From Opitutaceae bacterium TAV5 (lineage in GTDB: Bacteria; Verrucomicrobiota; Verrucomicrobiia; Opitutales; Opitutaceae), in NCBI GenBank assembly GCA_000242935.3, contig CP007053.1:2899001-2963000 (forward strand): DNA of 64,000 bases. Reading direction: 5' to 3'. Position 1 is the first letter of the stretch; the number at the start of each line of letters is the position of its first letter. The position numbers and the translations under genes are program-made. The notes beneath the pieces are model-generated. The model was not told where the DNA came from, ran no database searches, and worked only from the letters and a program-made list of their open reading frames with translations. Shown in pieces: positions 13,960 to 45,235 of the stretch.

Positions 13960-14796
13960 ATGAATATCAAGTTCTCACCCGGACTCCCTGTTCTGCGTGT
14001 CGCCAGCGTCGGCGCACTGGCACTCCTCGTCGCGGCATTCACCTCGGCCCCTTTGCTGGCGGCGGATCCGCAAACCCTTGTCGCCAGTCAGGACACTTTT
14101 ATCCACGGCGGAAATCAGACTACGAATTACGGCAATTCCACGAGTCTTGCGCTTGCCGGTCGCGGCGTGTCCAACGCCCGGAAAATCTATCTCGGCTTCG
14201 ATCTGTCCGGGATCGATTCCTCTGTGGCATTCGATGCGTCTTCCACGTTTTCACTCACGCTGACGAATTCCTCATTCCTGATCGGAAACGCCAACGGTTC
14301 GGTTACAATCAACGTGTATGGAACAACCGATAACACCGCACCTTTTAGCGAAGCATCGGTCACCTGGAATAATGCTCCGAAGAACAATACGAGCAACAGT
14401 ACCGGTTTCTGGACAACCGGTGTAACACTTTTGGGATCGATCACCATCGACTCGACCAGTGTGAGCGGAAACACCACTGTCACCCTGAGCGGCCTCGGAT
14501 TGTCCAATTATCTGAACTGGGCAATTGGCAACTCCGGCGATCTTTACGGCACGGGAGCCACGCAGGCGAACAGCAAGAAGATTACTCTCATGCTTGCTGT
14601 GGATGCCGCCTATGGCGGCACGGACTATCCGGGATTCAACTTCCATTCCTCGGAAGCCGGCGTGGCGGACGCCCTCAAACCGACGCTCACGCTCAGCACC
14701 AGCGAGATTCCCGAGCCGGCTACGATTGCCATCATTGCCGGAGTGGCCGTCCTCGTGGCTGGCGCGTTCTGGCGTCACTCTTGCCGTCGTCGTTAA
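13960..14796 (+). CDS. PEP-CTERM protein with DNRLRE-type domain (locus B)
   Basis: A 278-residue exported protein. The signal peptide spans about residues 1-35 (ending PLLAAD). The body resembles the DNRLRE beta-sandwich: TLVASQDTFIHGG, then YLGFDLSGI, VTINVYGTTDN and ASVTWNNAP, a domain common on surface proteins of polysaccharide degraders. The sorting signal is IPEPATIAI, then a hydrophobic helix and basic tail RHSCRRR. It is the first gene of the locus B operon, placed behind two LacI-type sites and 59 bp before the GH36-type gene. Function is probably surface attachment or glycan binding; this is inference. Confidence 0.9.
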   Translation: MNIKFSPGLPVLRVASVGALALLVAAFTSAPLLAADPQTLVASQDTFIHGGNQTTNYGNSTSLALAGRGVSNARKIYLGFDLSGIDSSVAFDASSTFSLTLTNSSFLIGNANGSVTINVYGTTDNTAPFSEASVTWNNAPKNNTSNSTGFWTTGVTLLGSITIDSTSVSGNTTVTLSGLGLSNYLNWAIGNSGDLYGTGATQANSKKITLMLAVDAAYGGTDYPGFNFHSSEAGVADALKPTLTLSTSEIPEPATIAIIAGVAVLVAGAFWRHSCRRR

Positions 14797-14855
14797 TTGG
14801 CGAAGAAATCCGATCCCCCGTCTCCCGTCACCAGCGAACGGTTCACCTTCTCTCG

Positions 14856-17060
14856 ATGATCACTCTCACGCCCCTCGCCCCGGTTGAGTCACAGACCACG
14901 CACCGGACTCCCGGCCGGAAGGCGAACGCGTCTGGTGATCCGCTCGATGCGGCAAACGAAGGTGTATCCACAATTTCATTGCAACATACTCGTCCGGACG
15001 CGCCCGGGCTTCTGTATTCGCGCCCGGTGCGCCTGCCAGACTGGAAGCGTTGTTGTTACTACGCGCCATTCCAGCGTCACGCGATCAATCCTGCGCTCGA
15101 CCTTTGGCCCGAAGGCTACAACCAATGCCATCCGTTGCCCCTCCGCAACCGTACAGAGCTCCGCCAGGCAAAACGTGGAGGCATGTTTGCCATTTTCGGG
15201 CTCACCGATGGATCGTTTCTCGCCCTGCTTCCTCTGGTCGGAATGAGGACCGCTGCGTGGCTCCGTGGCGATCCGGATGCGGAATTGCAAATCGATGTCG
15301 CGCATTTCGGCTCCCACCACACAGCCTTCACCGGAGACATTCCCCTGCTGGTCTCCGCGTGTGCTGCCACGCCTTATGCCGCCACCGCCCGCGCGTGGAA
15401 GCTGGCCTTGTCGCATCCCCTGATGCGTGCCGCCGGACGCCTGCGCCACGAAAAGGAATACCCGGAAGTTTTCGAATACCTCGGATGGTGTTCGTTTGAG
15501 GAATACAAGCTCGACATCAACGAAGGCATCATCACCGGCGCCTTGCGTTCCCTGGCCGCCTCGCCGGTTCCGGTTCGCTGGGCGCTGATCGACGATGGCC
15601 ATATCGACGATGGCAGCCGCGCCACCGATCCGCTCATGCAGACCCAGGAAGGCGCGGATGGCGGTCCCGGTCAGGTTTCTGCCACCATGCAGGCCCGCCA
15701 GTTGCACAGCGCCCGGCCTCACCCTGAAAAATTCCCGCATGGCTGGGCTCCCGTCCGCGCCGTAGCCGACGCCGATCCACGTCTGCGCTGGCTTGGACTC
15801 TGGCTCAACTACAATGGCTACTGGGGTGGCATCGCACCCGATCACCAACTCGGTGCGGACATCGACCGCCATCTCATCGCTCTCGATCCGGATGATCCCG
15901 GCTCGGCCCGGCTTCCTGGCGAAAAGCCCGGTGATGCCGAAGCATTTTATGAAGCGTTCACGAAACCGGTTCACGAAGCCGGCTTCGACTTCATCAAGGT
16001 GGACAACCAGGCCGCCAACCTCCGTTTTTACGCCGATTCTCCAGGCGTGCAAAACGCCGTCGCCGCTGCCGCCAGCTGCCGCCATGCGCTCGAAAAAACT
16101 GTCGCCGGCCACTTCAAGGCGATCATCGGCTGCATGGCACACAACAACCTGTACATTCTTCACCAGCCCGTGTCGCAGGTGATGCGATGCAGCGAGGACT
16201 ACAAGAAAGAAGATGCCTGGCGCGCGAAGCACCACCTGCACAATTCCTTCGGCAACATGCTCTGGATGGGCCAGACCGTTTGGGGCGACCACGACATGTT
16301 TCACAGCAGCGACCGGGTGGCCGGCGCACTCATGGCCCGCAGCAAGGCGATTTCCGGCGGTCCCGTTTATCTCTCGGATCATCCCGATCATTTTGCCAAG
16401 GAGCTCATCGCTCCGCTCCATCTTGCCGACGGCCGCATCCTGCGTCCGCTGGCGCCCGCGGTTCCCCTGCCGGAGAGCGTATTCATTGATCCGTACGAAG
16501 ATGATGAGGCATACCGTGTCATCGCGCCCCTCCCGCACGACTGCGCCGCGCTGGCCGCCTGGAATCTCACTCATCCCGAAAAAACGGTGCGTGGCGCATG
16601 GCATATGGATGACCTCCAGCACCGTGACGCCATGCTCGCTTCAAGTGGCGCGGGAGTCCCGCCCGCTGGTTTGGAAATCACGGGCGGGACACCCGTGCCC
16701 CATTTCGGAAGCGGGCGGGACGCCCGCGCCACACCGGGTCGGCAAGTCCTCCTCTACGACACGCTCACCCGCACCGTCCGCCTTCTCACGTCCAACGACG
16801 CGGAAGTTGCCTTCACGCTCGCGCCGCTCACCGACGCCTTTGTTATCATGTCGCCCGTCGTTCGAGGATGGGCACTCATTGGCAATCCCGAAAAATACCT
16901 GCCCCCCTCTTTTGTCTCACGATTCGAAATTTCATCTGACGGCACCGCCATCACTCTTGCCGGAGCCGAAGCAGGTTCCGTTCTCGTCTGGCATACCCGT
17001 TCAGGGCTGCGCCAGATCGACGTTCCATCTGGTCAACAGCCCGTTACCATCAACCAATAA
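14856..17060 (+). CDS. GH36-type glycosidase, Sip1/raffinose-synthase-like
   Basis: The 734-residue protein lacks a signal peptide. Landmarks of the raffinose-synthase/alpha-galactosidase branch are LGWCSFEEY, WALIDDGHIDDG and FDFIKVDNQ, where Asp383 is the expected nucleophile; GGPVYLSDHPDHF follows near the active-site rim. Expected activity is on alpha-galactosides, but substrate is unproven. I chose the ATG at 14856 over a frame start inside the previous gene. Residues of about 597-626 (GAGVPPAG, GTPVPHFGSGRDARAT) are encoded by a palindromic repeat inserted in frame and look foreign to the family. Next in the operon is a pseudopilin 9 bp downstream. Confidence 0.82.
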   Translation: MITLTPLAPVESQTTHRTPGRKANASGDPLDAANEGVSTISLQHTRPDAPGLLYSRPVRLPDWKRCCYYAPFQRHAINPALDLWPEGYNQCHPLPLRNRTELRQAKRGGMFAIFGLTDGSFLALLPLVGMRTAAWLRGDPDAELQIDVAHFGSHHTAFTGDIPLLVSACAATPYAATARAWKLALSHPLMRAAGRLRHEKEYPEVFEYLGWCSFEEYKLDINEGIITGALRSLAASPVPVRWALIDDGHIDDGSRATDPLMQTQEGADGGPGQVSATMQARQLHSARPHPEKFPHGWAPVRAVADADPRLRWLGLWLNYNGYWGGIAPDHQLGADIDRHLIALDPDDPGSARLPGEKPGDAEAFYEAFTKPVHEAGFDFIKVDNQAANLRFYADSPGVQNAVAAAASCRHALEKTVAGHFKAIIGCMAHNNLYILHQPVSQVMRCSEDYKKEDAWRAKHHLHNSFGNMLWMGQTVWGDHDMFHSSDRVAGALMARSKAISGGPVYLSDHPDHFAKELIAPLHLADGRILRPLAPAVPLPESVFIDPYEDDEAYRVIAPLPHDCAALAAWNLTHPEKTVRGAWHMDDLQHRDAMLASSGAGVPPAGLEITGGTPVPHFGSGRDARATPGRQVLLYDTLTRTVRLLTSNDAEVAFTLAPLTDAFVIMSPVVRGWALIGNPEKYLPPSFVSRFEISSDGTAITLAGAEAGSVLVWHTRSGLRQIDVPSGQQPVTINQ
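16645..16732. repeat. Palindromic repeat element inserted in frame in the GH36-type gene
   Basis: The left arm at 16645-16666 (GTGGCGCGGGAGTCCCGCCC plus GC) and the right arm at 16711-16732 are inverted copies with one mismatch in 22 bp, around a core containing another CGGGCGGGACACCCGTG palindrome. The GTGGC...GCCAC ends recall the intergenic elements at 39466 and 45027. The 88-bp element, with flanking bases, keeps the reading frame. Confidence 0.75.
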
Positions 17061-39465: not shown

Positions 39466-39492
39466 AAAGTGGCACGGGCATCCCTGCCCGTG
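39466..39492. repeat. Copy of GTGGCACGGGCATCCCTGCC repeat
   Basis: The 27-bp unit AAAGTGGCACGGGCATCCCT plus GCCCGTG occurs again, identical, at 45028-45054. CACGGGCATCCCTGCCCGTG is itself palindromic. It lies in the 265-bp gap between the divergent ABC operon and the lipoprotein gene, which otherwise shows only the presumed promoters. Confidence 0.7.
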
Positions 39493-45026: not shown

Positions 45027-45235
45027 AAAAGTGGCACGGGCATCCCTGCCCGTGGACGGCGCGAAGCGCCGCAAAGTGGCATGGGCTTCCAGCCCATGAT
45101 TCCGGTGAGGCGTGAGCATCCCTGCCCGCGCCTCCCGCGCTTCCCGCGCCACTTCTGCCGGGAGGCAACGCTCACGGGCTGGAAGCCCGTGCCACTTGCT
45201 CAGACCTCACGGGCAAGGATGCCCGTGCCACTTTT
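45027..45235. repeat. Composite palindromic repeat filling a convergent gap
   Basis: The outer arms AAAAGTGGCACGGGCATCC (45027-45045) and its exact inverse complement (45217-45235) match 19 of 19. Inside are more palindromes of the type GGGCATCCCTGCCC, TGGGCTTCCAGCCCA and GGGCTGGAAGCCC. It covers almost all of the 235 bp between the stops of purT and the Gfo/Idh gene and could serve as a bidirectional terminator. Confidence 0.75.

Follow-up and report, generated by a model that had tools for sequence, protein, structure and literature searches.

In-frame REP clusters and REP-associated tyrosine transposases apparently nested within host genes of Verrucomicrobiota

REP elements with GTAG and CGTC tags have been described, as have REP-flanked genes encoding REP-associated tyrosine transposases (RAYT/TnpA-REP) (PMC3733652). 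Opitutus terrae has the most intragenic GTAG REPs, GTGG tags occur in its GTAG-20 family, and in-frame REP copies lie in its uvrA and other genes (PMC3733652). In a classification of Y1 proteins, a few unexpectedly long ones were discarded as gene fusions or annotation errors (PMC6006769). The RAYTs of PMC3733652 are flanked by REPs but do not lie inside host genes, and a typical RAYT is free-standing with its own stop codon; those described here are nested within hosts, often stopless and in frame. Selfish enzyme genes carried harmlessly in host genes, essential ones included, are otherwise represented by IStrons, inteins and intron-encoded enzymes, which are spliced out at the RNA or protein level.

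The DNA analyzed here (the window) is a 64,000-nucleotide stretch of the genome of the termite-associated strain TAV5, which belongs to the same bacterial family, Opitutaceae, as O. terrae. The TAV5 genome consists of two contigs, one of 7,317,842 bases that carries the window and one of 99,831 bases. A preliminary description of the window had reported an 88-bp inverted repeat at 16645–16732, translated within a GH36-type enzyme. Inverted-repeat analysis located arms of 23 nt each at 16645–16667 and 16710–16732, which are 96% complementary and separated by a 42-nt spacer; a 22-nt arm matched twice in the window, against 0.04 matches expected from shuffling. The arms were confirmed, and the structure could be refined: the cluster consists of three REP units, of which the central one is degenerate, rather than of a single palindrome. 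Unit 1 lies on the plus strand at 16645–16666 (GTGGCGCGGGAGTCCCGCCCGC) and unit 3 on the minus strand at 16711–16732 (GTGGCGCGGGCGTCCCGCCCGC on that strand), both defined by the inverted repeat and the arm matches; between them, the degenerate unit 2 lies on the minus strand at 16681–16699 (inverted repeat I2, 89% complementary). As read from the sequence, the stem-loop of the unit is GCGGGC-GTCCC-GCCCGC, with a 6-bp stem, a GTCCC loop and a GTGG tag, and the tags of the cluster point outward. The core unit contains no stop codon in any of the six frames.

The host gene lies on the plus strand at 14781–17060, bounds that are those of a stop-to-stop open reading frame (ORF) with a TTG start, so that the real start may be further downstream. 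Its protein matched Pfam Raffinose_syn (GH36 type) with E = 8e-39. The frame stays open across the REP cluster (...SSGAGVPPAGLEITGGTPVPHFGSGRDARATPG...), and the entire 88 bp at 16645–16732 codes for GAGVPPAGLEITGGTPVPHFGSGRDARAT; the in-frame position of the repeat within a GH36-type gene is thus borne out. Comparison of the gene between TAV5 and its nearest relative, Geminisphaera colitermitum TAV2, gave dN 0.18, dS 1.25 and dN/dS of about 0.15, values that indicate that it is under purifying selection. Similar palindromes elsewhere in the window had also been noted. Motif search of the window located a lone unit of a second subtype (GTGGCACGGGC...GCCCGT) on the plus strand at 39469–39491, and four second-subtype units, two facing two, lie between long open frames at 45031–45231. 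The latter subtype is the one that brackets a RAYT elsewhere in the TAV5 genome.

A DNA search with the element returned 76 matches in the TAV5 genome. When an 18-base core was used and one mismatch allowed, 229 matches were obtained, compared with 0 for the reversed control pattern. TAV2 had 327 core matches. The core was absent or rare in 131 further genomes from the order, G091 having 13 matches and G021 having 5, most of which end in GCGCT. The GTGG tag was present in 190 of 195 REP units, a proportion that holds within the four tags admitted by the search pattern (GTGG, GTAG, GGGG and GGAG). Opposite-facing pairs occur at the window site and at 45031–45231, and the 229 copies are dispersed over the chromosome. 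A GTAG-like tag (GTGG), a stem within 5–13 bp, a high dispersed copy number and association with a RAYT are properties of GTAG-type REPs. Judged by these features, the element at 16645–16732 is a REP cluster of GTAG/GTGG type that is very probably translated, and it belongs to an already known kind. It resembles the O. terrae GTAG REPs in its GTGG-type tag, found there in one family, and in its small hairpin, dimers, high copy number and in-frame copies, although species and repeat set differ and the likeness is one of described features. The preliminary description had compared it with the palindromic elements of Rickettsia. This comparison is fair as an analogy, since those palindromes too are retained in frame in proteins, but the class differs: CGTC REPs and the Rickettsia RPE have a CGTC tag and no linked transposase, whereas the present repeats are tagged GTGG and linked to a RAYT. 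We rejected identity with them because CGTC occurs solely inside the hairpin (GGGCGTCCC).

The claim that a mobile repeat enters genes without breaking them was followed up by scoring codon usage on both flanks of 111 REP sites on sampled stretches of the TAV5 genome. Thirty-four lay in one continuous coding frame. One of them, at locus L120, had matched a histidine-kinase-like motif (GPGIPPA) by chance; its removal left 33 of 110, in agreement with the claim. Frame preference, a check proposed at the same time, was also evident: of 30 first outward-facing units, 25 were read in the GAGVPPA/GAGVSPA frame and 4 and 1 in the other two (p = 4e-8), some sites lying within one gene so that the cases are not fully independent. 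As the core is open in all six frames, this bias reflects a preference, which would arise either from target choice or because frames rich in Arg and Trp are selected against. Survival within genes is presumably limited to copies that inserted in frame and at sites where an insert is tolerated. Genes carrying REPs include MurC, UvrA, UvrD and PheT, named by sequence recognition rather than family search. In alignments with TAV2 and the relative G013, the corresponding sites were empty or held another insert, as in MurC, UvrD and UvrA; the PheT insert was present in TAV5 and TAV2 and absent from G013. Two UvrA-like genes and a UvrD-like helicase with in-frame REPs (L005, L030 and L023) match the gene classes reported for O. 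terrae (PMC3733652).

According to the preliminary description, no transposase of the RAYT kind was visible. At the level of the genome this did not hold, as TAV5 has six Y1_Tnp genes, one of them REP-bracketed. The latter, at C1:4441225 (L034:424-2823), lies in an 800-aa frame and is nested in isochorismate synthase, in the order isochorismate synthase N-terminal part, three REPs, RAYT, more REPs, and chorismate-binding C-terminal part. The bracketing REPs are of the second subtype of the same family. The RAYT is homologous to Escherichia coli TnpArep (PDB code: 4er8; E = 1.3e-10); the group shares with known RAYTs and REPtrons this homology, the HUH and tyrosine motifs, the REP-flanked gene and the NCBIfam family REP_Tyr_transpos. 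Isochorismate synthase has only a short linker at this point in seven relatives (G013, G133, G050, G126, G091, G035 and G080), and in TAV2 this linker holds a pair of REPs of the subtype present at 16645–16732. A RAYT bracketed by the window's exact REP subtype was found in the relative G091, not in the TAV5 genome; its bracketing repeats, GGAGCGCGGGCGTCCCGCCCGC, combine a GGAG tag with the core of the first subtype and share the hairpin of the window's units. In G091, two creatininase-like stretches are joined in a 731-aa frame by a RAYT that REPs flank on either side (L109:3483-5675). This may be two tandem genes linked by the element, and the case was not counted among the split genes.

The TAV5 RAYT, used as query, matched in 113 of 388 Verrucomicrobiota genomes. 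The domain has about 190 aa, but 54 of the 150 listed places of the RAYT clade lie in open frames of 440–2175 aa, compared with 0 of 61 places of the other Y1_Tnp clade (about 320 aa). The 40 stretches examined contain loci chosen by their long open frames, from which the rate of in-frame versus out-of-frame insertion is not deducible. In at least 20 cases, Pfam and NCBIfam domains of the host family flank the transposase on both sides in the same frame. The hosts are LeuRS (four), ValRS, IspG (two), MetH (two), CarB, PriA (three), HypF, the large subunit of exonuclease VII, HsdR (three), restriction-modification methylases and others. Some cases come from draft genomes; the TAV5 and G424 contigs are chromosome-sized. 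One LeuRS ORF, that of G344, clears the NCBIfam cut-offs for both LeuRS and REP_Tyr_transpos. In four genomes the sole strong LeuRS match is the RAYT-nested gene, and the insertion site is common to all four; the LeuRS gene is uninterrupted in three further members of the same class. The loci sharing this site are L251, L252, L253 and L268. Between L251 and L268 the LeuRS hosts are 92–93% identical and their RAYTs 51%, which by sequence comparison fits either repeated invasion of one LeuRS site or fast divergence.

Among readable nested copies, the HUH motif was intact in 39 of 39, and the catalytic tyrosine, located by alignment to 4er8, was present in 36 of 37. Nested copies lack their own stop codon, and the frame runs at least 90 aa on into the host gene; this absence concerns the nested form and leaves the RAYT homology unaffected. 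Both flanks had 13-mers in common in 35 of 39 nested RAYTs (9 of 544 control windows) and in 25 of 27 standalone RAYTs (4 of 140 control windows). Nested copies are scattered over the RAYT tree, and its well-supported branches force at least 11 state changes; nesting has therefore been gained or lost many times. Among three DUF4080 host genes, RAYT dN was 0.16–0.21 with dS saturated, as it was for most nested pairs, so that dN/dS is there only a bound. In contrast to IStrons, inteins and intron-encoded enzymes, nine nested loci contained no Rfam intron at gathering scores, and no splicing (Hint) domain was among the Pfam matches of the scanned nested ORFs.

These observations make it very probable that the REP cluster of the window sits, translated, in a tolerant stretch of the GH36-type gene, and that the same lineage nests RAYTs in host genes. 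A GTAG/GTGG-type cluster would have inserted into a part of the enzyme that is poorly conserved and tolerates it, presumably moved, like other such clusters, by a RAYT. RAYT genes with their flanking REPs lie in frame in hosts, with no stop before the C-terminal part of the host. Host and transposase would then be made as one polypeptide, in which the transposase forms an inserted domain on REP-encoded linkers. Out-of-frame loss of such an element would break the host gene. We consider it reasonably likely, though less so than the reading of the window itself, that Verrucomicrobiota RAYTs repeatedly exist as domains inserted in essential host proteins (LeuRS, ValRS, IspG, MetH, CarB and the like), stopless, unspliced, flanked by REPs with a core free of stop codons in every frame, and keeping themselves by co-translation. 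The nested host genes are apparently unbroken by the transposase.

The history of the GH36 insert bears on two other readings. In the TAV2 orthologue the segment is in frame and, at 76 nt, shorter by 12 nt; in a TAV5 paralogue a one-unit remnant is left. Such related sequence at the same place would be expected if the segment were an ancestral part of the enzyme merely resembling a repeat, but this can hardly be upheld: alignment showed that the segment is absent from the orthologues of four distant genomes (CSMAG_1311, G049, G090 and G126), TAV2 is itself repeat-rich, the paralogue retains a single arm, and the core recurs at unrelated places throughout the TAV5 genome. The finding that the preliminary description had named as fatal to its proposal, the same segment in orthologues from repeat-free genomes, was not made. 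As TAV5 and TAV2 share the insert, the insertion either dates back some time or has recurred, and the event itself was not captured; an AlphaFold2 model of the protein, based on three sequences only, had a pLDDT of 33, too low to place the insert. DNA identity between TAV5 and TAV2 was 86% for the insert (16645–16732 versus L077) and 73% for the rest of the gene, as if the repeats had been homogenized or inserted later. Gene conversion would give this pattern, and the copies might have spread mainly by conversion or recombination between hairpins, the association with RAYTs being incidental. We regard this as unlikely, because orthologues have clean empty sites and the repeats common to both RAYT flanks, nested or standalone, indicate a mobile unit.

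Two further readings concern the nested transposases. In one, the insert is taken out ahead of production of the host enzyme, in the manner of IStrons or inteins, which would most readily account for hosts that are essential and single-copy. Such removal is less probable still, considering that neither introns (nine nested loci) nor splicing domains (scanned nested ORFs) were found, that small REP inserts in the same genes require no removal, and that RNA splicing needs no frame retention, yet the frame is retained across the insert. Misassemblies, pseudogenes or neighboring genes joined by a chance frame are the least probable of the explanations for nesting. It is true that long spurious frames are common in high-GC genomes, that the loci were selected for long frames and that the creatininase case of G091 is perhaps two tandem genes. 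However, in many cases a single protein family is split by a RAYT in the same frame and curated full-length cut-offs are passed; host domains on both sides together with these curated family scores make chance read-through unlikely. Moreover, one site is used in four LeuRS genes, nesting is also seen on contigs the size of a chromosome, the catalytic residues are retained, and none of 61 places of the other Y1_Tnp clade has a long frame.

In-frame REPs were already known, whereas transposases nested in frame in essential genes appear to be new. We found no report of RAYTs in frame inside host genes in a search that left out most subscription journals and bioRxiv and does not establish priority. 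If nesting is as proposed, a RAYT within single-copy essential enzymes of many families, with catalytic residues intact, represents a mobile-DNA lifestyle that we did not find described. With nested RAYTs, both the tolerance of proteins for inserts the size of a domain and the persistence of RAYTs at low copy number would become open to direct testing. The overlong Y1 proteins that earlier surveys discarded as fusions or annotation errors would merit re-examination.

Restriction-modification genes (Eco57I-type methylases, HsdR and MmeI) were frequent hosts of nested RAYTs (L234, L235, L240, L247, L254, L262, L202, L203, L260 and L267). At four other loci (L232, L249, L258 and L270), the RAYT lies at or near the C-terminal end of the host ORF, the hosts being TatD, a lyase-family enzyme and RarA/MgsA; this placement is a second arrangement beside true nesting.
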